Shown: in pieces, positions 2,905 to 47,068 of the stretch | Position numbering within the stretch: the first letter of the stretch is position 1 | Layout: the number at the start of each line of letters is the position of its first letter | DNA from: Trueperaceae bacterium | GTDB taxonomy: Bacteria > Deinococcota > Deinococci > Deinococcales > Trueperaceae | NCBI GenBank assembly: GCA_002707365.1 | Contig: PAMQ01000004.1 | Coordinates: 54,192-115,164 of the forward strand | DNA length: 60,973 nt | Reading direction: 5' to 3' | The notes under the pieces: model-generated | What the model was told of the DNA's origin: nothing | Databases searched by the model: none | The model's input: only the letters and a program-made list of their open reading frames with translations | Position numbers and translations under genes: made by a program

Positions 2905-4167
2905 TTAGAGCTTTGCCTTTCGCATCTGGTAAAAAATCCATATGGTCCACAACGTTCCAGGCAAAACAATGATTGTGGCGAGACCAGCAATTACGTTGGA
3001 GATCGAGAAGGTATCCAACGCTTGGCCTACCAGGAAGGCTCCAATTGAGGCTATCAGCATGAACGTTGCGAATTCGGTAGCGAATACGCGACCGCGCATA
3101 TGGGAAGGGACCTGTTGAAGGAGCAGCTGGGAGGAAAAGGCCCAGATCATGCCACCACCAAAGCCGCGCAGGGCAATACCCAACAAAGTGAGGCCGAAGT
3201 TTGCTAACGGAAAGACGACTATGTAGCCGATCGCTACTGTGGCATAGCCTGCGGCAATTGCCCAACTGAGCCGGTGATTACTATCGCCTGTAAAGATCCG
3301 GGCCAAGATCGGACTAATACCAGAACCTAGTCCCGTCATCATGAACATTAGGCCGAGGCCGAGACTGCCGCCCACACCAATAGAAAAGATCTCCTTAGCT
3401 ATCGCGACTTGGACAATTTCAAAGGTTGAGCCGGCAATTGCAGCTACCATTGCCTTATGCAGTGTGATGAAAAGGATCCCGCGATTACCCCAAAGATAGT
3501 TGAGCCCCTTGAGATACTTACTTAAAGCGCTGTTTAACGCACTCTCTCCGCGTTCAACAGCGTCAGGTGATGGCTCAGAACGAATTTGGAGGATAAATAG
3601 TGCAGAAACCAAGAATGTAGCACTATCGATAATGAAGGCTGGATAGATTCCCCAAAGGCCAGAAACAAGGCCCCCGAGTGCTGCGCCCACCGACAGCATA
3701 ACTGACCATGTAGAGGCGCTTATGGCATTAGCAGCGCCAAGCTCACGTTTACTGACTAAATCACCGAGAAAAGCTGTCCGCGTAGGGGTAAAAAAGCCAC
3801 TGATGCCCATTTGTATAGCTGTTAAGACATATAGCAACCAAATGTCGCCTGGGTCACGAATGAGCAGGAAACAAAGTAGAGTGACTGAACGAACGATGTC
3901 AGTAGCAACTAGAATGTTCTTCCTATTGAAACGATCTGCGACCACTCCGGCTATCGGGCTGACCAGGAATGGCGCAAGCATACGCACTATGAAGAGGCCA
4001 CCCACTGCAAGGCCCGACTCGGTCAGTATGGCAATCAAAGTGGCTGATGCGATCAGGTTGAACCAATCACCGAGTAGGCTTACCAACTGACCCAGCCACA
4101 AGAAACGAAAATTGCGGTTGTTTCGGACTAACTCCACATAGCCGACTGTTGACTGTTGATTATTCAA
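2905..4167 (-). CDS. MFS transporter, MFS_3/macrolide-efflux-like
   Basis: The 420-residue protein has about 12 hydrophobic segments and the MFS loop 2-3 signature GVVADRFNRKNIL near residue 78. The N-terminal layout (NFRFLWLGQLVSLLGDWFN) is typical of EntS/MefA-like exporters that extrude siderophores or drugs; the substrate here is unknown. The TTG start overlaps the TGA of the upstream MFS gene (TTGA, 4 nt), indicating an operon and coupled translation. The ribosome binding site is weak, consistent with coupling. A downstream gap separates it from the aldo/keto reductase. Confidence 0.85.
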   Translation of the reverse strand: MNNQQSTVGYVELVRNNRNFRFLWLGQLVSLLGDWFNLIASATLIAILTESGLAVGGLFIVRMLAPFLVSPIAGVVADRFNRKNILVATDIVRSVTLLCFLLIRDPGDIWLLYVLTAIQMGISGFFTPTRTAFLGDLVSKRELGAANAISASTWSVMLSVGAALGGLVSGLWGIYPAFIIDSATFLVSALFILQIRSEPSPDAVERGESALNSALSKYLKGLNYLWGNRGILFITLHKAMVAAIAGSTFEIVQVAIAKEIFSIGVGGSLGLGLMFMMTGLGSGISPILARIFTGDSNHRLSWAIAAGYATVAIGYIVVFPLANFGLTLLGIALRGFGGGMIWAFSSQLLLQQVPSHMRGRVFATEFATFMLIASIGAFLVGQALDTFSISNVIAGLATIIVLPGTLWTIWIFYQMRKAKL

Positions 4168-5372
4168 GTCGCTATGTCAATCCGCTGCTCTCTGCGGGTT
4201 ATCGCTTCGTGGACAAGGACTTGGGCGAGGGCCATTAAAGTCATGCATATTGGGATTACTTCAAAGCCGATGCGGTCACCAAGGACACCGGTCAGGCTTG
4301 GGAGAATTGCTACGCCAAGGGCAGCACCTGCTCCTTGGAAGCCGATTACATTCGGGCTGTGCCAAATTCCTACAAGACGTGGCGTCCTGGAAACCGAGGA
4401 GGGGAATACAGGGGCTAGGGTCAAACCCATTAGAGCCAAGCCAAGATAACTCACGGTATTTGCGGGGTTCCACCACAATAGCAATGTTCCGACAACCGTT
4501 CCCAGAGTGCAGACCCTTAAGACCGGGGCAATGCCAATCCGATCGCTCAAGCCTCCGAACACGACCCGGCCAAGTGTAATAAACCCCCAGAAAAATCCGA
4601 TCCATAAACCCGATAGACCCGGATCTATCCCTCTTGACTCTACAAACAAATTGTTTGTTAGTTGCCCTGCACTAACCTCGAGACCTGTATGAATTGCAAA
4701 CAGGCCGATACAGAGCCAGACCATGCCAAGCTTGAGACTCTCCTTAGCCGAGGGGCTCCTCATCTCGCCTACACCCCTCGGTTGACTTCTGTAGTCAAGG
4801 TCCCAGTTCTTGCGCGTAACGCCGAAAAGGGCTGTAATAACAAGTTGAAAGGTTGCTAATGCAGCGTAACTGACTTGCCAAGTTAGTGGCAACGTGATCA
4901 CGAGAAAAATCACCAAAAGGGGACCTAAGAACGAGCCAATACCAAAAGTCGCATGGAGCCAGTTCATGCTAGTGGTGGAGTAGTTCTGTGCTACGAAGGT
5001 GTTGACGCCGGTGTCAATAGCTCCTCGGCCTAAACCAACGATTAGAGTTGAAATTACTAAACCCACCCATGTTGGCGTTAGGCTGATTGCGACTAGGCCT
5101 ATCAGACTAAGAAGAGCACCAATTAAGCAGTACCAACCGACCCCAGTTACGGCAACAATTCGGCCGCTCCAGAAGCTGGCGAAAAAGCCCCCTACAGTTG
5201 TTGCTAAGAGCAAGATGCCTAGCGATTCAAGGCTTCGGCCGAAAGTGTCTTGCATTTGTAGCCAAGCCACGCCCAAAGCCCCACCTTGCATGCCAATAGC
5301 AATGAAGCTGAGGCAACCAATAGCAAGAAGAGACATCCGCAATCGCGGTCTTATAGGAGGCTGCATTCGCAA
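4164..5372 (-). CDS. MFS transporter, sugar-type (FucP/GlcP-like architecture)
   Basis: The 402-residue protein has about 12 membrane segments. It carries NWLHATFGIGSFLGPLL near residue 140, a motif seen in MFS sugar and multidrug transporters of the FHS-like group, and a second half that restarts with GLFAIHTGLEVSAGQ. A TTG start at 5372 has AGG 7 nt upstream; an ATG at 5366 is the alternative. It is the first gene of a two-transporter operon. Having two unrelated MFS proteins translationally coupled is somewhat unusual and may mean uptake and efflux of related compounds, which is inference. Confidence 0.83.
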   Translation of the reverse strand: MRMQPPIRPRLRMSLLAIGCLSFIAIGMQGGALGVAWLQMQDTFGRSLESLGILLLATTVGGFFASFWSGRIVAVTGVGWYCLIGALLSLIGLVAISLTPTWVGLVISTLIVGLGRGAIDTGVNTFVAQNYSTTSMNWLHATFGIGSFLGPLLVIFLVITLPLTWQVSYAALATFQLVITALFGVTRKNWDLDYRSQPRGVGEMRSPSAKESLKLGMVWLCIGLFAIHTGLEVSAGQLTNNLFVESRGIDPGLSGLWIGFFWGFITLGRVVFGGLSDRIGIAPVLRVCTLGTVVGTLLLWWNPANTVSYLGLALMGLTLAPVFPSSVSRTPRLVGIWHSPNVIGFQGAGAALGVAILPSLTGVLGDRIGFEVIPICMTLMALAQVLVHEAITRREQRIDIAT

Positions 5373-5606: not shown

Positions 5607-7337
5607 ATGAGTAAAGTAGTAGATTTCTTGCAGGGGAAGACCTTGCTGATTACTGGTTCCACCGGGTTCCTTGCTAAGGGGTTGGTGGAAAAGATCCTTC
5701 GTGTAGTCCCAGATGTTGAGCGCATTTATTTGCTTATCCGATCTAGAGGTGGGGAAAACGGGGGACCTGTCTTAACTCCTACTTCTCGACTTGAACGAGA
5801 GATTCTTAGATCTAGTGTTTTTGGAAAGTTGCGAGAGATACACGGTGATAGCTTCGAAACTTTTGCGAGAGAGCGTTTGGTTGCTATTGACGGAGATCTC
5901 ACGAAGGACGGGTTAGGGCTTGATCCGCAAGAGTTGGCTCGACTTTCCAGCGAGGTGCAGATTGTCATTAATAGCGCAGCTACTGTTGTTTTCGATGAGC
6001 AAATAGACGAAGCGATTAACTTGAACACCTTGGGACCACAGCGGCTACTCAAAGTGGCAAAGACTTTTGAGAAGCAACCACTGTTTGTGCATGTTTCTAC
6101 CGCATATGTTAGTGGCCAACAGCGCGAGCCATTAAAGGAAAAGCCTCTACCTACTGACCGGACTTTGGCCCAAATAATGGGTAGGGGTCTGAATAAGCCG
6201 TTCAACCCAGAGATGGCTGTTGAAAGAATGCTGGGTGTGTGCCGGGATATTGAAAGAGATTCAAGGAAACTGTTTCGAATGAAGAGATTCCAACGAAAGG
6301 CTGCTCGCAGTAGAGGTGGTAGTCAAGGTGGGAATGGAGACATAGCTTCGGCTGAAAAACTTCGTTTCAAGTGGCTGCGGGAGCAATTGGTCAGTTATGG
6401 AATGCGCTGTGCCAGGCAAATGGGTTGGCACGATAGTTATACTTTGACTAAAGCGCTTGGCGAACAATTAATTTCTTTAACTAAAGGAGATCTACCAACG
6501 GTTATCATTCGCCCATCGATTATTGAGAGTAGCTTGTCAGAACCTGAGCCCGGATGGTTGGATGGCCTCAAGGTGGCAGACGGTATTATCGCGCCATTCA
6601 GCAAGGGCAGATTACCGGATTTTCCAGGTAATCCCAAAACCACTATCGATCTTATCCCAGTTGATTTTGTTGTCAACGCTATCCTGGCATCTATCCCACA
6701 AATAGCAGCCCAGGGTGGAATCAATTTCTATCATGTTAGTAGTGGGATTAAAAATCCTATACGACTCAGGGAATTGGTCGATCTGTGCCACGATTATTTT
6801 AAGCGGTTTCCCATGCGGGGACGTAAAGGAGAGCCTATTCGCACGGGACGTTGGACTTATCCTTCTCCTTGGCTGTTTCGCCGCTGGATATTCATGCGGT
6901 ACCAATTTCCACTCAGTAGCTTGCAGTGGCTTTTGGAAAGATTCCCAACGTTACCTGGCGCAAAGCGTTTAAAGCGTCGCGTGACTTTACTAAGAACGAT
7001 TTATGACCGTGCTATTTACTACTGTAGTATCTACAGCACGTATACCCGCTTCAATTTTGAGTTTAAAACTGATAATACGACTGCGCTTTTCCGATCACTT
7101 TCATGCGAAGATCAAGGAATGTTTGGTTTTGATGTGAAACGCATTAATTGGCCCAAATACATCCAGGAGGTTCACATACCTGGGCTCAAAAAACATGTTT
7201 TACAAACGAGAAGCGAAAGTATAGCTGACAACCAGGCATTTCAAGAAGGGAAAATAGATAACATCTCGGGTGCTATTGCGGGGTCCGCCATCGATCAAAG
7301 GGCTGTTGCTGATAATGTACCCACGCGAGGAGGTTGA
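5607..7337 (+). CDS. Fatty acyl-CoA reductase, alcohol-forming (FAR / male-sterility type)
   Basis: This is a 576-residue extended SDR. The NAD(P)-binding TGSTGFLAKG motif lies at residues 16-25, with the following LLIR strand typical of FAR proteins, and the catalytic YxxxK is Y278-K282 (SYTLTK). A C-terminal sterile-like domain follows. Alcohol-forming FARs reduce long-chain acyl-CoA to fatty alcohol with 2 NADPH. It is first in a four-gene operon and the next gene starts 7 nt after its stop. Its neighbours need a fatty alcohol as co-substrate, which fits exactly. Alternative roles are wax-ester or alkyl-lipid synthesis, but no wax synthase is nearby. An insertion of basic residues (RFQRKAARSRGG, about residue 230) is unusual. 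Confidence 0.88.
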   Translation: MSKVVDFLQGKTLLITGSTGFLAKGLVEKILRVVPDVERIYLLIRSRGGENGGPVLTPTSRLEREILRSSVFGKLREIHGDSFETFARERLVAIDGDLTKDGLGLDPQELARLSSEVQIVINSAATVVFDEQIDEAINLNTLGPQRLLKVAKTFEKQPLFVHVSTAYVSGQQREPLKEKPLPTDRTLAQIMGRGLNKPFNPEMAVERMLGVCRDIERDSRKLFRMKRFQRKAARSRGGSQGGNGDIASAEKLRFKWLREQLVSYGMRCARQMGWHDSYTLTKALGEQLISLTKGDLPTVIIRPSIIESSLSEPEPGWLDGLKVADGIIAPFSKGRLPDFPGNPKTTIDLIPVDFVVNAILASIPQIAAQGGINFYHVSSGIKNPIRLRELVDLCHDYFKRFPMRGRKGEPIRTGRWTYPSPWLFRRWIFMRYQFPLSSLQWLLERFPTLPGAKRLKRRVTLLRTIYDRAIYYCSIYSTYTRFNFEFKTDNTTALFRSLSCEDQGMFGFDVKRINWPKYIQEVHIPGLKKHVLQTRSESIADNQAFQEGKIDNISGAIAGSAIDQRAVADNVPTRGG

Positions 7338-7344
7338 GCAGTAG

Positions 7345-9321
7345 ATGGCTGTTGAAGATACCCCTGGCCGAATCCCTCTTGTAAAAGACGGCGCGGTAGG
7401 TACAGAGGCAACACAATCAACTGAACAACTCCCAATTGGTTACGATGCCGTAGCCCAAGTGATAATTGATGAATTAGGTAGTGCTGGTTGTTTTCAAGGG
7501 TGGGATGCTGAGGAGTTGGTTTGGCCCACTGCTACTCAATCTACCGATCATGTTAAGGATCTCGAACGGCGTGTGGAACTGGTCGTAGCTATACAACGTG
7601 GGGTCCCTTCACTCCGTGATCGGCGCCTAAATGAAGCTTACGGGGACTTCCTAAATGCTGAAGGTGTTTATCATCAAGGAACCCTTATCTATCTACAACT
7701 CAAGAGATTATTTGTAGAGAGAGATTTGGGCGATGAAGAAGAATTCCTTGGTCTTTATCAAAGTATTTTGATTGACACCCTTGCCAATAGGGAGCCCGGT
7801 GGTGAAGCGTTTGGTGAGGGTGTTATTCATAAATTGGGGTTAGCACGAGTGCCCTTAGAGCACGCCCAGCAGGCTGCTTTAACACTACCGGGCGTTATTC
7901 TTGATGACCCACGTTGGTCGGAAGCCTTTTTAATTGTTGTTGACGGAGTGGAAGTTGAGCTTCCGCTTCAATCAGGACTCTTTGAAGTTGCTCGTCGTAC
8001 CCTAGATTACTTAGCTGCTGGTGACCTCCTAAGTACCCGCTACAACGTGTACAGTAACTTTGCTTGGCTTGGAAGTTCAGTCTGGCGCGTGATGGTCGAG
8101 GGAGACCTCTTACAGAGGAAGCTCAGCGGTATCGACGGTGCTAGTCAAAAATCCTTGCAACGGCTTAGTCAGGATATCCATCTTTGCGAGGAGATGTTGT
8201 TTAAGTTTTACAAGGCCCATCGGGAAGACCCAGGTCGAATCAAACCTAAAGATTACTGGTACGGTCAACCGTATAGCTACCTCACCAGAGACATGATCGA
8301 TGTTGCCGTTAATGTTGTGGATCGTTGCAAGGATTTGGTGGCTGGCTTACCAGGGTGTGGATTAGTAGCTCCAGAATTGCCAGAGTTGCTCAAGGGTGAT
8401 ATCGACCGAGGTAGCTTCTTAGAGCACTCTTCCTCTGGTCGAGAAGTAATTCTAGGTCGGTGGCATCGCTTAATAAAAATGGCGGGTTGGTTAGTTGCCT
8501 CATGGCGCATTGGTTCAGAAAAACGAAAATTAGCGCGGGCTCGAGTAAACCGCCATACTCGACTCGAACTTGGTTGGCGCCAATGGCTCGGCTGGGCTGA
8601 AGAGACTCTTCAACGATTTGGTATTGAAGTGAAGGTTACGATCGACCCAGGTTTCTACGAAATTGTGGAAAATTTAGACCTGACCCCAGGCAAGACAAAG
8701 GTTCTGTTTCTGCCTACCCATCAGAGTCTTCTCGACCACCCGGTGATGTACCAAGTCCTTAATTCGGAAGAACTCCGAGGAGCTATGGGTTGGGAGGGAT
8801 CTCAGCCCTGTGTGATGTTAGCCCGGCGGAACCTTGCCGCTTCAGGGGTAAAATTAGGACCTTGGTCGATGACTATGTTTGGCGTAACTTCAGACGATTT
8901 CGATGAATTGCTTGAGGAGGTGGATGGTTACGTTACTCGCGATCTTAGTGGCGAAGCTGGTTCACCCCTGAAAAGGGTAGTAGATGCGCTCAATGAGCGT
9001 CCAGCAGTCATTTATCCGATGGCAACTACAGCCGCCTTCGGGACACAGCTGTTTCCTTTGCAACATCCCTTATTCGCCAGTCTCCCGCAAGATGTGATGA
9101 TCATTCCGATTGCCTTACGTGGTATCCATTCGTTATGGCCGAAAACACCAAGGGGAAACATGAATCTTAACCCAGGAATGGTAGAGGCTGTGATCTCTCC
9201 ACCTTTACTTGGCGAAACCACCCTTATGCCAAAACGGCGGTCACTGCGATTCCAACTCGAGACAGCTGCTCTTGTTCAAGCTGTTCACATTACAAGCCTA
9301 TTGAATCCGGAGCCTCAGTAG
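7345..9321 (+). CDS. Glycerol-3-phosphate/DHAP acyltransferase (PlsB/GNPAT-like)
   Basis: The 658-residue protein ends in a PlsC/LPLAT acyltransferase domain. Motif I, HxxxxD, is H459-D464 in FLPTHQSLLDH, and a later strand, MIIPIALRG, fits motif IV. The first 440 or so residues are not recognised beyond a helical PlsB-like N-terminal region. Length matches animal GNPAT (about 680) better than E. coli PlsB (about 800). The position between an acyl-CoA reductase and an alkyl-DHAP synthase argues that the acceptor is dihydroxyacetone phosphate, giving 1-acyl-DHAP; glycerol-3-phosphate is the alternative. A GGAGG lies 11 nt upstream of the ATG, inside the end of the FAR gene. Its stop overlaps the next start by one base. 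Confidence 0.82.
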   Translation: MAVEDTPGRIPLVKDGAVGTEATQSTEQLPIGYDAVAQVIIDELGSAGCFQGWDAEELVWPTATQSTDHVKDLERRVELVVAIQRGVPSLRDRRLNEAYGDFLNAEGVYHQGTLIYLQLKRLFVERDLGDEEEFLGLYQSILIDTLANREPGGEAFGEGVIHKLGLARVPLEHAQQAALTLPGVILDDPRWSEAFLIVVDGVEVELPLQSGLFEVARRTLDYLAAGDLLSTRYNVYSNFAWLGSSVWRVMVEGDLLQRKLSGIDGASQKSLQRLSQDIHLCEEMLFKFYKAHREDPGRIKPKDYWYGQPYSYLTRDMIDVAVNVVDRCKDLVAGLPGCGLVAPELPELLKGDIDRGSFLEHSSSGREVILGRWHRLIKMAGWLVASWRIGSEKRKLARARVNRHTRLELGWRQWLGWAEETLQRFGIEVKVTIDPGFYEIVENLDLTPGKTKVLFLPTHQSLLDHPVMYQVLNSEELRGAMGWEGSQPCVMLARRNLAASGVKLGPWSMTMFGVTSDDFDELLEEVDGYVTRDLSGEAGSPLKRVVDALNERPAVIYPMATTAAFGTQLFPLQHPLFASLPQDVMIIPIALRGIHSLWPKTPRGNMNLNPGMVEAVISPPLLGETTLMPKRRSLRFQLETAALVQAVHITSLLNPEPQ

Positions 9322-11093
9322 TGACCCAAAGTAACCGTTCTATGGATGCAAATTACGACCCATCGCCTGGAAAGCGTAACCCACACAAGTGGGGGTATAC
9401 AGATACCCGCTTTGAGTTTGATGGAGATACTACGGTTCGTTTAACGGGAGATCGGTATCCCTTGGCAGGATACGCGCTGCCGGCGTTTGTTCCATTTGTT
9501 GAAGAGATGTTAGGCATTTCGGTTCGTCGAGAAGATCTACAGGAAGAAAATTACGATACTGAGATTCCTACAGCTAATTTATCAGAAGAATTTATAACTA
9601 GTCTTCTCAAGGTGATGGACTCTAATCAAGTGTCTCAGGATGACCGAGACCGCCTGATTCATAGCCATGGGCAACTTAGTGTTGATGAGGTTTATCGGAT
9701 CCTTTATCGAGACGCTCTTAAACGGGTTGTTGATCTAGTGGTTTACCCTGAGACCGACCAGGATGTACAAGCGCTTATTGAGTTGGCTGGTCAGTGGGAC
9801 GTTGTTCTGATCCCCTACGGTGGTGGTACTAATGTAAGTGGTGCCTTGACAGTCCCCCGCGAGGAGCGCAGGACCGTAGTTTCTGTCGACATGAGGCAAA
9901 TGGATAAGATCCTCTGGATCGATGAAGAGAATGGCCAGGCACATGTTCAAGCCGGTATTTCTGGCAAGGCATTAGAGGCGGCTCTTGGTGCCAAAGGCTA
10001 CACTTCGGGACACGATCCAGATAGTGTTGAACTATCCACTTTGGGTGGCTGGATTGCTACAAACGCTAGTGGCATGAAGAAGAACCGTTACGGAAATATT
10101 GAAGACATCGTCATAGAAGCTACTTTAATTACACCAGCAGGCATTATTGAGACTCATCAAGTGACCCCGCGAAATGCAATCGGAATACAACCACGTTTAC
10201 TCTTATTCGGCAACGAAGGTAATTTTGGGATTGTGACCCGAGCAGTGATTAAGATTCATCCTCTGCCTGAAGTGCAGGCGTATGGGTCACTAGTTTTTCC
10301 TACGTTTGAGCGCGGCGTTGAATTCCTTTACGAGTTACGAAGGTCTGGTGGATTGCCCGCTAGCATTCGGTTAGTGAACAACAATGAATTCCGGTTCGGC
10401 CGGGCTCTACGTGGCGAAGAGACCCTTTGGGCTAGTCTCCAGGGACGTCTCCAGAGTTTTGTTCTCTTCCAACTAAAAGGGTACGACCCAAAGAAAATGG
10501 TGGCCTGTACGATCTTAATGGAAGGCAATGCTGCAGAGGTAAAACAGCAACGGAGGACAATCTTTCCACTAGCACGTCGTTTTGGTGGTCTCAGCGGAGG
10601 CTCTAGTGGAGGTAAACGTGGATACATGCTTACATTCGGTATTGCTTACATTCGCGATTTTTTTAGTCAGTTTCAGATTTTAGGGGAAACTTTCGAAACG
10701 TCGGTTCCTTGGAACCGCATTCATGATGTCACTAGATCAGTAAAAGAGGAGCTGGGTAAACAGGCGCTAGAGCACGGTATTAGAGGACGCCCTTACTTAG
10801 CTTATCGTGTTACCCAGACGTACCACACAGGCGTCTGCATCTACTTTACTATGGGGTTTAGTGGAGTCGGTTTACAGGATCCCGATAAGGTGTATCACCA
10901 GGTCGAGCAGCGCCTCCGTCAAGTAATTCTTGATAACGGAGGTTCCCTTTCTCATCATCATGGCGTTGGTAAGATACGGCAGAAGTTCTTGCCACAGATT
11001 CAGACAGAAGGTAGTACCGCAGTGCTTCGTCAGGTAAAGAATGCCGTTGATCCAAAGAATATCTTTGCTGTTCGTAATGGCACCTTCGACTAA
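9321..11093 (+). CDS. Alkyldihydroxyacetonephosphate synthase (AGPS-like)
   Basis: This is a 590-residue VAO-family flavoprotein. The FAD-binding loop PYGGGTNVSGAL is near residues 164-175, followed by the strongly AGPS-like GHDPDSVELSTLGG, ASGMKKNRYGNIED and RVTQTYHTGVC. The catalytic His triad SLSHHHGVGK has its histidines at 545-547. AGPS replaces the acyl chain of 1-acyl-DHAP with a fatty alcohol, forming the ether bond without net redox change. I judged the match from memory of the animal enzyme; it extends along the whole domain, well beyond general GlcD similarity. Start is GTG, sharing the G of the preceding TAG. No peroxisomal-type N-terminal extension is present. A D-lactate/glycolate dehydrogenase is the fallback reading. 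Confidence 0.87.
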   Translation: MTQSNRSMDANYDPSPGKRNPHKWGYTDTRFEFDGDTTVRLTGDRYPLAGYALPAFVPFVEEMLGISVRREDLQEENYDTEIPTANLSEEFITSLLKVMDSNQVSQDDRDRLIHSHGQLSVDEVYRILYRDALKRVVDLVVYPETDQDVQALIELAGQWDVVLIPYGGGTNVSGALTVPREERRTVVSVDMRQMDKILWIDEENGQAHVQAGISGKALEAALGAKGYTSGHDPDSVELSTLGGWIATNASGMKKNRYGNIEDIVIEATLITPAGIIETHQVTPRNAIGIQPRLLLFGNEGNFGIVTRAVIKIHPLPEVQAYGSLVFPTFERGVEFLYELRRSGGLPASIRLVNNNEFRFGRALRGEETLWASLQGRLQSFVLFQLKGYDPKKMVACTILMEGNAAEVKQQRRTIFPLARRFGGLSGGSSGGKRGYMLTFGIAYIRDFFSQFQILGETFETSVPWNRIHDVTRSVKEELGKQALEHGIRGRPYLAYRVTQTYHTGVCIYFTMGFSGVGLQDPDKVYHQVEQRLRQVILDNGGSLSHHHGVGKIRQKFLPQIQTEGSTAVLRQVKNAVDPKNIFAVRNGTFD

Positions 11094-11108
11094 GGTGCGT
11101 TCGGAGAC

Positions 11109-11930
11109 TTGACGAGAGTGACGAGAGTTTCTGGTAAGACAGTAGTCATAACTGGTGCTTCGTCGGGCTTAGGCGCGGTTTTGGCACACGAGTTTGCTGT
11201 CGCTGGAGCTAAGCTAGTGCTTTTTGCCCGTCGTGAAGAGGAACTGCTGGTAACGGCAGACGCTTGTGAGGCTGTAGGAGCTGAGGTGCTGATCGTGCCC
11301 GGTGACGTCGTTAAACCCCATGATTGCGCAACTCTAGTCGAACGCACCGTAGATCATTTTGGCTCTATTGATTACCTTATTGCCAATGCGGGTTTGAGCA
11401 TGTGGGCTCGTTTCGATGAGATAACTAACCCCGGTCTTTTCTGGGAACTTATCGAGACAAACTATTTAGGTGTGGTCCACTGTCTAATGCCAGCACTACC
11501 TCACTTAGTTCGTAATAAGGGGATGATTGTAGCGATCTCCTCAATCCAGGGTGAGATTGGTGTCCCACTTCACAGTGGTTACGTTGCCTCTAAGCATGCT
11601 GTTCAAGGACTCCTCAAAACCCTACAAATGGAGCTTGAAGACACAGGTGTTGATATTCTTACGGTACTCCCACACTGGCTGAGGGGGACGGATCTTCGCC
11701 ATAAGGCCTTAGGTGCTGACGGTCTACCAATTGGTAATAGTTCACGTAGTTACAGTCGCGAGTCGATTTCGCTCCAAGTTTGTAGCAAAGCCATTCTGCA
11801 GGCAGTTGCCCAGCGGAGGAGAAAACTAGTAATCCCTTGGAAATTAAGGTTACTACCGTGGTTAGAACAGATCCATCCGAAGCTTGTTGAATATATTGTC
11901 GGCCGAGCAATCAAGAAACAGCACGATTAG
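11109..11930 (+). CDS. Short-chain dehydrogenase, probable acyl/alkyl-DHAP reductase
   Basis: This is a 273-residue classical SDR. Cofactor motif TGASSGLG is at residues 15-22, NAG is present, the catalytic Ser lies in AISSIQG, and YVASK has Y158 and K162. The long basic C-terminal tail after the Rossmann core (RRRKLVIPWKLRLLPWLEQ) resembles DHRS7B/PexRAP, the animal reductase that turns 1-alkyl-DHAP into 1-alkyl-glycerol-3-phosphate and is membrane associated. Operon position, 15 nt after the alkyl-DHAP synthase, supports this step. The TTG start is close to a GGAG; GTG at 11118 is an equally good start. As a lone SDR its substrate would be unassignable, so the specific role rests on context. 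Confidence 0.75.
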   Translation: MTRVTRVSGKTVVITGASSGLGAVLAHEFAVAGAKLVLFARREEELLVTADACEAVGAEVLIVPGDVVKPHDCATLVERTVDHFGSIDYLIANAGLSMWARFDEITNPGLFWELIETNYLGVVHCLMPALPHLVRNKGMIVAISSIQGEIGVPLHSGYVASKHAVQGLLKTLQMELEDTGVDILTVLPHWLRGTDLRHKALGADGLPIGNSSRSYSRESISLQVCSKAILQAVAQRRRKLVIPWKLRLLPWLEQIHPKLVEYIVGRAIKKQHD

Positions 11931-12134: not shown

Positions 12135-13172
12135 CTAGGAAGCTTTGCCTCTTAACTGGATCAATTCCGGTTCGGCAACCTGTAATTGCGTTGGGGGTAA
12201 TCCACGAGCCATGAGTTCAAGGTCGTCCACCACCATCCTTCCGATAGCCCGGCGTTCAAGGCGGATTGAAGCTGCCCTATGGGCAGAAAGGATTACACCT
12301 GGCACCTTTCGGATTGGATGGTCCGCTGGAAAGTGGGGTTCTTCAGGGAAGACATCGATCGCAGCCTGGAAGCAGCCTTCTTGAAGTAACTCGGTAAGGG
12401 CATCGAAATCTACCAGGTGCGAGCGGCTAATTAATAAGAGGAGGGCGTTTCGTTGTAACAAGCGAAGCTTCTCACGTGATAACAAACCTCGATTAGTGGG
12501 TGTTGGTACGGCCAGTACAAATACCACTCGACTTTCCGAGAGAACCTCGTCAAGACTAGCTGGTATGCAGCCAAGCTTAGTTACGGCAGTATCAGGAAGC
12601 CACGGGTCGAAGGCGCGCACACAAACGCCAAAGGGCTGCAACAAAGGTAATAGGTTTCGTGCGAGTGAACCAAACCCGACGAATCCCACGTCCTTGCCAT
12701 AAAGACTGAAGTCCCTCTCAGGCAGGTCACTCTGCCACACTTCGTTGCCTTGTCGAAACGCTTCGTGTTCAGTGACCAAGCCTCGTCCACCTGCTATTGC
12801 CATACCAAGAGCCATCTCAGCGACCTGTGGGCCGAAGGCGGGCGCGCAACTAAGGACACGTATTCCACGCTTAAAGCACTCGGCATAGTCGATGCCTCCA
12901 GGGAATCCCCCGGATACCTCTATGAGCGCCCGGAGTTTCGGGGCTCTGGCCAGCCTTTCAGAGTTCATTCCGCCTGAGTACGGAGCGTGACGAGTGCTCA
13001 CATAAGCCCAAGTGTCCGGTAGAAGGATGTCGAACTTATCTTCTGGAAGAGGTTCATCACGACCCCACGCTATGTGACTGAATGAAGCAAGACGCTTAAG
13101 GTCTATCGGGTCGAAAATCTCATCTATGGTACGGAAATGAGGGGATAGCAAGACAGTTGGTTTTTTAGACAT
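12135..13172 (-). CDS. D-isomer-specific 2-hydroxyacid dehydrogenase family protein
   Basis: The 345-residue protein has the two-domain layout of the D-2-hydroxyacid dehydrogenases. The NAD motif GFGSLAR is near residue 168. The catalytic Arg is in LISRSHLVD, the Glu in DVFPEEPHFP and the His in LSAHRAAS. It probably reduces a 2-keto acid, or oxidises the hydroxyacid, with NAD(H). Residues next to the catalytic Arg (RSHLVD rather than the common RGxxVD) are somewhat divergent. GGAGGT precedes the ATG. It stands alone, convergent with the lipid operon and divergent from the ABC importer, so the importer's ligand might be related; that is a guess. Confidence 0.83.
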   Translation of the reverse strand: MSKKPTVLLSPHFRTIDEIFDPIDLKRLASFSHIAWGRDEPLPEDKFDILLPDTWAYVSTRHAPYSGGMNSERLARAPKLRALIEVSGGFPGGIDYAECFKRGIRVLSCAPAFGPQVAEMALGMAIAGGRGLVTEHEAFRQGNEVWQSDLPERDFSLYGKDVGFVGFGSLARNLLPLLQPFGVCVRAFDPWLPDTAVTKLGCIPASLDEVLSESRVVFVLAVPTPTNRGLLSREKLRLLQRNALLLLISRSHLVDFDALTELLQEGCFQAAIDVFPEEPHFPADHPIRKVPGVILSAHRAASIRLERRAIGRMVVDDLELMARGLPPTQLQVAEPELIQLRGKAS

Positions 13173-44519: not shown

Positions 44520-45617
44520 TTAAGAACTCAGACTTGCTTCAAGCTTCTCGTAAAGACCCCTAATCTCAAGATTATACTCCTGGGCATGATTTTGTAGGTG
44601 AAACAAAGTGCTCGGATCTTCCGTGTAGAGTACTTCTATCCCACGACTTCGGGCGTCTTCAAGTCGACCCTGTGTTAGTGCCTTAGCAAGTTCAGGATGA
44701 GTAAATTGGAGTGAAGTATTACCGACCGGGTGTGTGCGCTTTTTCCGCCAAAATAACTCGAGTGGTGTCTCTGGCAGGATAGCTCTGAGAAGCAGTCGAG
44801 GAGACTCGTATCGATTCGGCGCCCGAGAAGCATGAGTCGGATCTACGTAAGCACTTGTTTTGTCAGTGACTGCTGGTTCAAAAGAAATCTCTCCTGAAGA
44901 AAGAGCGTTAGCTAAGAGGGTGATGAGATCAACAACCTCGACAGTATCGGGCCAACTTATACCCAAACGTTCATTGTAAAGATTTGAAAAAGTGAATGCG
45001 TCCCCAGGAGAAAGGACTACGAGTTTAGACGCACCTACAACCTCGAGCTCTTTGAGAATTGTACTGGCCTGTTTACGTGCAGTGTCTAGTAGGCCAAGTG
45101 AAGAAGCTAAAAAACCGTTACTTTTTCCTCGGGATATGAGGACCGGATTTTCGCCTAGCGCCTCGAGTAGTTTTACGGCAGCTTCTATAGCTTCAGGCCA
45201 TAAGAAGTGTGATTCATCACCAACAAAAAGGGCAGTGCTTCCCTTGTTAGTAGTAGTTTCTAAGGGATCTTGGCCAAATGGTGACGCTTGATTTTGGAGT
45301 TTCTTATCGAGCTTATAGACAGAGTCTGGAGCTAGTCCTGCCTTTACAAGGTCTGCCTTTACAAGAGCAACTGCATCAGAGAAAGGTTGATCAGTAACGC
45401 AATTGGCTTGGGCGATCCCTGCATCCACCTCACTGAAGATCACATCTACCCAATCTTCATTCCAGGTGATTAATCCACGCTGTTCTGATATGGCGGTTAG
45501 AGCAATTCCATGTGGGGTTAGTGTTTCGCGATGGAATATCTGGTCAAGCGGATCGACGTGACGACACATGAGGCAGTAGCGACAGTTTTCCAGAGTAAGA
45601 CGCGCTTTGTCGTTCAT
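44520..45617 (-). CDS. Degenerate GlcF/LutA-like Fe-S subunit
   Basis: The 365-residue protein begins with a ferredoxin-type half motif, NCRYCLMCRHVDP (C12, C15, C18); the fourth ligand position is Asp. It then follows the outline of a two-repeat CCG/heterodisulfide-reductase-like protein, but the usual cysteines are gone: LFVGDESH for xxxGCxxx, ISRGKSNGFL for the CCG, and VLSPGDAF for CPxC. YESPRLLLRAI keeps the sequence after the second repeat. GlcF-type subunits pass electrons from the flavin subunit to quinone. Translation is coupled to the FAD gene (TGATG overlap), so the pair is probably still a complex with altered cofactors. Confidence 0.75.
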   Translation of the reverse strand: MNDKARLTLENCRYCLMCRHVDPLDQIFHRETLTPHGIALTAISEQRGLITWNEDWVDVIFSEVDAGIAQANCVTDQPFSDAVALVKADLVKAGLAPDSVYKLDKKLQNQASPFGQDPLETTTNKGSTALFVGDESHFLWPEAIEAAVKLLEALGENPVLISRGKSNGFLASSLGLLDTARKQASTILKELEVVGASKLVVLSPGDAFTFSNLYNERLGISWPDTVEVVDLITLLANALSSGEISFEPAVTDKTSAYVDPTHASRAPNRYESPRLLLRAILPETPLELFWRKKRTHPVGNTSLQFTHPELAKALTQGRLEDARSRGIEVLYTEDPSTLFHLQNHAQEYNLEIRGLYEKLEASLSS

Positions 45618-47068
45618 CAGGATCCTTTCGTCCCAGGTCCGAAGCCGACTTTACCCGGGTTCATTATCCCGTTTGGATCGATTGTCTTCTTGATTGACTC
45701 TAGTAAAGGCCAAGCAGATCCGTATTGGCGCCTCATGAAGCGGGACAGTTTAAGGCCCACTCCGTGATGCTCATTAACCATTCCCCCATTATCTAGAACG
45801 GCTGTCATAGCTGTGTTCCAGACGCGATTATGGAGCAGTAAAGCTTCCTCAGGATCCTGAGGAGGATTCTGAATGATAAAGCGACTGTAAAGGGCAGTGC
45901 CCCAATGGAACCAATGCGAAAAATGCCCGATGAAGTCTATATCCCAATCAGCATAGGTGCTTTCGACTGCTTCTTTCTCTGCATGGTAGACCTGACTAAT
46001 CTTGTCGTAAGTGGTTACTGTTTCGGTAGTCCCGTACATCCAGGGAAATTTAAGGTTCTTTGGTGGATAGTAAAAGTCATAACGGTGTTTCCACCAGGCC
46101 TCCCCAGGATCACTACCTAAATCATCTGCTCCTAACTCAAGACAGATTTCAAGGGCTTTGCGTTCCTGCACAGATGCAATTTCCGGGTCACCATCAAAAA
46201 CCAGCACCATATAGGCACCCTCATATTCACGACCGAGTATTGCCTTGATTCGTGATGTTGTTGACTTTGGATCATATAGGCGTATAACGGTTGGATCTAA
46301 ACGGCGGGTCATCATGCGGCGACCGGCTTCTAGAGCATTATCAAGGTTATCGAAAAGAACTCCTCGGAAAAGCCGTGTTTCAGGAAGGTAATCGATCTGC
46401 ATTGTGGCTTCAGTAATGACACCAAGAGTGCCTTCAGAACCTAGGAACAGTCGATAGAAGTCGGGACCCGCAGCGTGGTTTGGAACGCGTGGTGTACGAA
46501 TTATATCCCCGTTCGGTAGTACTACTTCCATACCTAGTACCATGTCCTCAGCCTTACCGTATTTGGTGCTAATGGTACCTGAGCCGCGTGGGGCTAGGTA
46601 TCCTCCAAGTGTGGCACAGTTTGCTGAGGCTGGGTAGTGGGGAAGAGTAAGACCCTTTTCGTTAAGCGCCCATTCTAGTTGTGAGCCGTTTATGCCTGCT
46701 TGGGCAGTTATTGTGAGTGAAACCTCGTCAATTTCAATGATCTTGTTTAATCGTTTGGTGTCTAGCACAATTCCACCGAACATTGGGAGAGCACCACCCT
46801 GTGACCCAGAACCACCTCCCCATGGAATAACAGGAATTTTGTAATTGTTGGCAATACACAATATTTCGGATATTTCTTGTGCCGAGCCTGGGTGGAGAAT
46901 GTAGTCTGGTTTTCTAGGATTTTCAGCGCGGTCAAGCCACATTTGTGGGAGCCAGAACCAGTCTGTTGCGTAAATTAGTTTATCGGTTTCTTGTGTGGAA
47001 ATGTTTTCGGAGCCAACGACTTCCTCGAGCTCACTTCGGAGCATGTTGTGGTGTAGGTCTGGTCTCAT
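45617..47068 (-). CDS. FAD-linked oxidase (GlcD/VAO family)
   Basis: The 483-residue flavoprotein has PP-loop IPVIPWGGGSGSQGGAL near residue 78, GLTLPHYPASANCATLGG, GSEGTLGVITEATM, and a C-terminal NEHHGVGLK. Members oxidise 2-hydroxy acids, aldonates or lactones. The HH(G)VG motif is shared with alkyl-DHAP synthases, but the Fe-S partner and the epimerase/hydrolase neighbours point to a dehydrogenase. It is first in its operon; AGGCG is just upstream of the ATG. Confidence 0.85.
   Translation of the reverse strand: MRPDLHHNMLRSELEEVVGSENISTQETDKLIYATDWFWLPQMWLDRAENPRKPDYILHPGSAQEISEILCIANNYKIPVIPWGGGSGSQGGALPMFGGIVLDTKRLNKIIEIDEVSLTITAQAGINGSQLEWALNEKGLTLPHYPASANCATLGGYLAPRGSGTISTKYGKAEDMVLGMEVVLPNGDIIRTPRVPNHAAGPDFYRLFLGSEGTLGVITEATMQIDYLPETRLFRGVLFDNLDNALEAGRRMMTRRLDPTVIRLYDPKSTTSRIKAILGREYEGAYMVLVFDGDPEIASVQERKALEICLELGADDLGSDPGEAWWKHRYDFYYPPKNLKFPWMYGTTETVTTYDKISQVYHAEKEAVESTYADWDIDFIGHFSHWFHWGTALYSRFIIQNPPQDPEEALLLHNRVWNTAMTAVLDNGGMVNEHHGVGLKLSRFMRRQYGSAWPLLESIKKTIDPNGIMNPGKVGFGPGTKGS

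Follow-up and report, generated by a model that had tools for sequence, protein, structure and literature searches.

Can a single bacterial operon hold the alkyl-ether lipid route that animals run in their peroxisomes? The question was raised by four genes in a 60,973-nucleotide stretch of Trueperaceae DNA (here called the window), which comes from a genome of 2.08 Mb that is 97% complete. The genes encode, in order, a fatty acyl-CoA reductase (FAR), an acyltransferase-like protein (AT), an alkyl-dihydroxyacetonephosphate synthase (AGPS) and a short-chain reductase (SDR). All four are on the plus strand between positions 5607 and 11930, and the open reading frame coordinates gave intergenic gaps of 7, -1 and 15 bp, just as the original prediction had it. 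Two MFS transporter genes lie upstream, the one next to FAR at 4164-5372, and a 2-hydroxyacid dehydrogenase gene follows SDR at 12135-13172. Because the genes on either side run along the minus strand, the unit consists of exactly four genes. When the locus was scanned for promoters and terminators, sites were no more numerous than in shuffled sequence. From the evidence of sequence, we consider it likely that the operon is a self-contained, aerobic-type module for making alkyl-ether lipids by the peroxisomal route of animals.

The first gene (5607-7337, plus strand) encodes 576 amino acids. Both FAR domains were found in the protein, NAD_binding_4 with a Pfam E-value of 7e-67 and Sterile (FAR_C) with 1e-15. 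Proteins of this architecture are established alcohol-forming enzymes. The FAR family profile matched a solved fatty acyl-CoA reductase, 7eoz, at E=2.2e-124, and carboxylic-acid and thioester reductases scored far lower. The motif TGSTGFLAKG (TGxxGFLxK) is present, and YxxxK was read out at Y278-K282, where it had been predicted. By these sequence tests the gene is firmly assigned as an alcohol-forming FAR, which would supply the fatty alcohol.

The third gene (9321-11093, plus strand, 590 amino acids) encodes the FAD enzyme that would form the ether bond. A phmmer search matched guinea-pig peroxisomal AGPS (4bby) at E=3.5e-157, with 527 bits over residues 23-586. In the same comparison Dictyostelium AGPS scored 292 bits and the next family, lactate dehydrogenase, 84 bits. 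BLAST identity to the guinea-pig enzyme was 43%. Guinea-pig Arg419, Arg515, Tyr578 and the HHH motif, which are the catalytic and disease positions, align to R350, R445, Y508 and H545-H547, and all are kept; the three histidines lie inside GGSLSHHHGVGK. By every available sequence test the gene is firmly assigned as a true AGPS (EC 2.5.1.26), predicted to replace the acyl group of acyl-DHAP by an alkyl group. A plasmid collection contained no close AGPS, the best match being a Streptomyces protein at 32% identity. The window also contains, at 45617-47068, a GlcD-like FAD-linked oxidase of the dehydrogenase type, whose fold is paralogous to that of AGPS.

The fourth gene (11109-11930, plus strand, 273 amino acids) encodes a classical SDR, in keeping with the prediction, though the DHRS7B-like tail that the prediction gave it is only putative. 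PF00106 matched at E=4e-46, and YxxxK is present as YVASK at 158. The best curated NCBIfam family was PRK06181, which scored over its cut-off and is a general SDR family, and the PDB matches included no DHRS7B chain. In mammals alkyl-DHAP is reduced by DHRS7B and DHRS7 (PMC13200781). Even where a genome has AT and FAR at other sites, the SDR gene adjoins AGPS. This adjacency is the best evidence that the SDR acts on the AGPS product, and from it we infer a candidate alkyl-DHAP reductase.

The second gene (7345-9321, plus strand) encodes a divergent protein of 658 amino acids. It had been called an HxxxxD acyltransferase of the GNPAT kind. H459 and D464 are both present, and the AlphaFold2 model (pLDDT 73.6, pTM 0.78, weak loops, from a nine-sequence alignment) has a helical N-terminal half and a C-terminal PlsC-like fold with HX4[D/E]. 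The best Foldseek match of the model was PlsC of Thermotoga maritima (5kym; prob 1.00, E=1.2e-3, TMt 0.64-0.68), and Foldseek returned no good match other than PlsC. With a PlsC-like fold modelled around its HX4D motif, as in the LPLAT superfamily, AT is an acyltransferase by predicted fold. The sequence matches were weaker than the HxxxxD label had implied. Pfam Acyltransferase (PF01553) gave only E=0.008 and 16.4 bits against a curated cut-off of 23, and searches found no NCBIfam match, no PDB sequence match and no Pfam match above the curated cut-off. H459 was invariant in the nine-sequence alignment, whereas position 464 was D or E, with E in several relatives.

The claimed affinity to GNPAT/PlsB was not borne out. 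PDB, Pfam and NCBIfam gave no sign of it, an outcome that had been named beforehand as speaking against the prediction. The EGTR block of known DHAP/G3P acyltransferases is replaced by PM[AG]TT, and its place reads [MT][AG]TT in every relative checked. The combination of HX4D and EGTR blocks is absent, as is a family match over cut-off. For these reasons the GNPAT step is assigned by position, and from its place in the operon we infer that AT is a candidate DHAP O-acyltransferase. Other Trueperaceae lend some help to this assignment, since the neighbour of AGPS and SDR there is a fusion of FAR with a canonical PlsC-type domain, which carries NHTSHVD and PEGTRS (domains shown for locus L020) and occupies the slot of AT. 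When AT was compared with that canonical domain profile to profile, only block III-IV was aligned, with a probability of 2%.

The strongest competing explanation is that alkyl ethers are made but AT performs some other acyl transfer, to sn-2 of 1-alkyl-glycerol-3-phosphate or into storage lipid, while another acyltransferase of the cell provides acyl-DHAP. The missing EGTR block and lack of kinship to GNPAT/PlsB would fit such a role, as would the persistence of AT beside an ElbD-type protein in a genome without detected AGPS. However, in 17 genomes AT is flanked by FAR on one side and AGPS on the other, the fused PlsC-type domain holds the same slot in other Trueperaceae, and the genome already has PlsC. 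We regard this explanation as rather unlikely and keep AT as the candidate DHAP acyltransferase. A bolder version of that assignment would make AT an undescribed DHAP O-acyltransferase family, with PM[AG]TT in place of EGTR, and also make FAR-AT-AGPS-SDR the stand-alone ancestor of the fused bacterial versions and possibly of animal AGPS. Taken as a whole, this combination seems doubtful.

In the proposed pathway, FAR would convert acyl-CoA to a long-chain alcohol and AT would acylate DHAP to 1-acyl-DHAP. AGPS would then exchange the acyl group for the alcohol to give 1-O-alkyl-DHAP, which SDR would reduce to 1-O-alkyl-glycerol-3-phosphate, the most likely product of the operon. The ordinary PlsC of the cell would complete the sn-2 acylation. 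Two PlsC-family and three PlsY matches were found in the host genome, which means that the cell would make ester lipids as well as ether lipids. Cytochrome oxidase genes are present in the window, which fits an aerobe. The original prediction noted the absence of a CarF/PEDS1-type desaturase, and none was detected with PF10520 in 13 genomes, though the control likewise matched nowhere. Alkyl (plasmanyl) ethers are more probable products than vinyl ethers.

Could the end product be some specialised ether metabolite, such as a 1-O-alkylglycerol in free or stored form, instead of a membrane phospholipid? 1-O-alkylglycerols have been found in sponges (PMC9319591), and the ether-lipid source of the sponge holobiont, which has Latescibacterota among its symbionts, has been described as unknown (PMC9426513). 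The operon, however, has no phosphatase, transporter or tailoring gene, and its neighbours are on the opposite strand. This makes such a product improbable, and 1-O-alkyl-glycerol-3-phosphate remains the preferred one.

A search of related genomes for this four-gene order, which the original prediction had proposed, found it in 16 others among those fetched: one Truepera (bin119) and 15 Latescibacterota, some of them titled Gemmatimonadota in their records but placed in Latescibacterota by the genome collection. Recurrence in this many genomes shows that the arrangement is not a product of chance. The Truepera genome is an independent MAG and carries the whole operon at 66-75% identity to the window. 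In bin119, a 162-amino-acid open reading frame with no Pfam match (L026:850-1338) runs 4 bp into the beginning of FAR; the window has no counterpart ahead of FAR. Among 64 Latescibacterota genomes, 41 had AT with AGPS, 44 had AT with FAR, and 17 had none of the three. Co-occurrence of AT, AGPS and FAR in this set gave a Fisher p < 1e-9, a value inflated by shared ancestry.

Other arrangements were also seen. Five Latescibacterota genomes kept AT with no AGPS detected, which counts against the proposed role of AT. In three of the five, FAR was part of a long open frame (about 1,400 amino acids). Another Latescibacterota set, including the L034 genome, had AGPS-SDR, an unlinked AT and FAR within such a frame. 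Both of the two frames examined, one of them from the three genomes lacking detected AGPS, were of the ElbD type (FAR-ACS-acyltransferase). These are L124:5097-9317 and L125:4154-8350, with FAR, AMP-binding and acyltransferase domains; the genome that is the source of L125 (G163) has AT and no detected AGPS. Upstream of AGPS-SDR in L034:2284-7885, and likewise in L037, L040, L044, L045 and L046, there is a conserved set of genes, which in L034 encode an FG-GAP/ASPIC-UnbV protein, a TPR protein, a PPIC-type rotamase and a 350-amino-acid protein without a Pfam match. At L065:4230-10600, also from Latescibacterota, FAR and AT are of the window type at 48-49% identity, followed by an AGPS at 45% and an SDR at 28%. 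The AGPS of L065 groups with those of a different family belonging to the window's order, and modules seem to have been swapped here within one gene order.

The AT family occurred in 46 of the 64 Latescibacterota genomes, but within Deinococcota, the window's own phylum, in only 2 of 111. Such a skew is what a mis-assembled or contaminating contig, foreign to the lineage, might produce. Against this, TypA, whose gene shares the contig with the operon at a distance of 25 kb, was mostly 62-71% identical to Trueperaceae proteins and about 50% to those of Latescibacterota, which places the contig in Trueperaceae. The independent Truepera MAG points the same way, and GC and third-position GC of the operon match those of its surroundings. 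Contamination is therefore very improbable. The pattern of AT distribution suggests horizontal transfer instead, and through transfer of an AT-containing unit this lineage probably shares its version of the operon with Latescibacterota. GC content gave no sign of a recent transfer.

Trees of AGPS, FAR and AT each joined the window and Truepera bin119 in one clade with full support. The window AGPS was 63-66% identical to those of many Latescibacterota, compared with 55% to other Trueperaceae. When a single Trueperaceae AGPS clade was set against several acquisitions in AU tests, the p values were 0.53, 0.39 and 0.40, and the single clade was not rejected. Guinea-pig AGPS and the bacterial operon AGPS formed a 100/100 clade, with Dictyostelium, the Streptomyces proteins and GlcD-type paralogues outside, in a tree that has long branches and thin sampling and from which the Myxococcus AGPS is absent. 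With bacterial proteins that sit closer in this tree to animal AGPS than the Dictyostelium AGPS does, wider sampling could address where the eukaryotic enzyme came from. The idea that the AGPS-like protein is a flavoenzyme of the GlcD/D-lactate or glycolate dehydrogenase type, in a cluster for hydroxyacid metabolism, has almost nothing left to recommend it, for the common FAD_binding_4/FAD-oxidase_C architecture and weak glcD matches are outweighed by a six-fold higher AGPS score, AGPS-specific residues and full-length alignment, and the predicted AGPS-type flavoprotein stands.

The novelty first put forward was overstated, since both a Myxococcus xanthus cluster (MXAN_1676-1674; PMC9131029) and AGPS in Latescibacterota (homologues in 67 of 92 Black Sea MAGs; PMC11868695) had already been published. 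With the chemistry known in the one and the enzyme in the other, the operon is a variant on a known route. In the open-access literature, to which the search was confined (subscription papers were outside it), the four-gene operon, the AT family and Trueperaceae ether-lipid genes were all undescribed. The stand-alone four-gene layout, the unusual acyltransferase and the presence in this lineage thus look unreported. The operon points to an acyltransferase family with no curated profile match, and on the evidence of sequence some Trueperaceae and most Latescibacterota are predicted to have ether lipids.

Compared with FAR1-GNPAT-AGPS-DHRS7B of animals, the operon would share the reaction order, and it has an orthologue-like AGPS and a FAR with the same two domains. 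The animal pathway is peroxisomal, whereas here the genes form one operon in a cell with no peroxisome, and AT shows no kinship to GNPAT. PlsA/PlsR and Ger, of the anaerobic reductive route, also yield ether or vinyl-ether lipids in bacteria. They reduce an existing ester, and FAR, AGPS and a DHAP step have no part in it (PMC11868695). The elb cluster of myxobacteria and sponge symbionts is likewise bacterial, has FAR and acyltransferase domains and makes alkyl ethers (PMC9131029, PMC9426513). ElbD differs in being a single large FAR-ACS-ACP-AT protein that works without AGPS, and some Latescibacterota combine an ElbD-type protein with AGPS-SDR and an unlinked AT.

A close likeness is to MXAN_1676-1675-1674 of M. 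xanthus, which has the same core activities within one bacterial operon. It encodes an AGPS about 42% identical to the human enzyme, a FAR1/GNPAT-like fusion and an NAD epimerase/dehydratase, and it has a minor role, contributing little ether lipid (PMC9131029), a point against the route proposed here. FAR and acyltransferase are fused there but are separate genes in the window, where AT belongs to another, larger family that has no Pfam match over cut-off. The reductase of the window is a classical SDR in place of the epimerase/dehydratase. M. xanthus has CarF, and none was detected in the case of the window. Other Trueperaceae are nearer to M. xanthus in layout: at L020:2044-7225, and also in L019, L018, L021 and L025, a fusion of FAR with a canonical PlsC-type domain adjoins AGPS, as in MXAN_1675/1676, and SDR is also present where the contig extends. 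The myxobacterial route is divided over proteins that are fused and in part redundant; the operon of the window would instead cover the whole bacterial alkyl-ether route with four discrete genes that could be transferred to a laboratory host.
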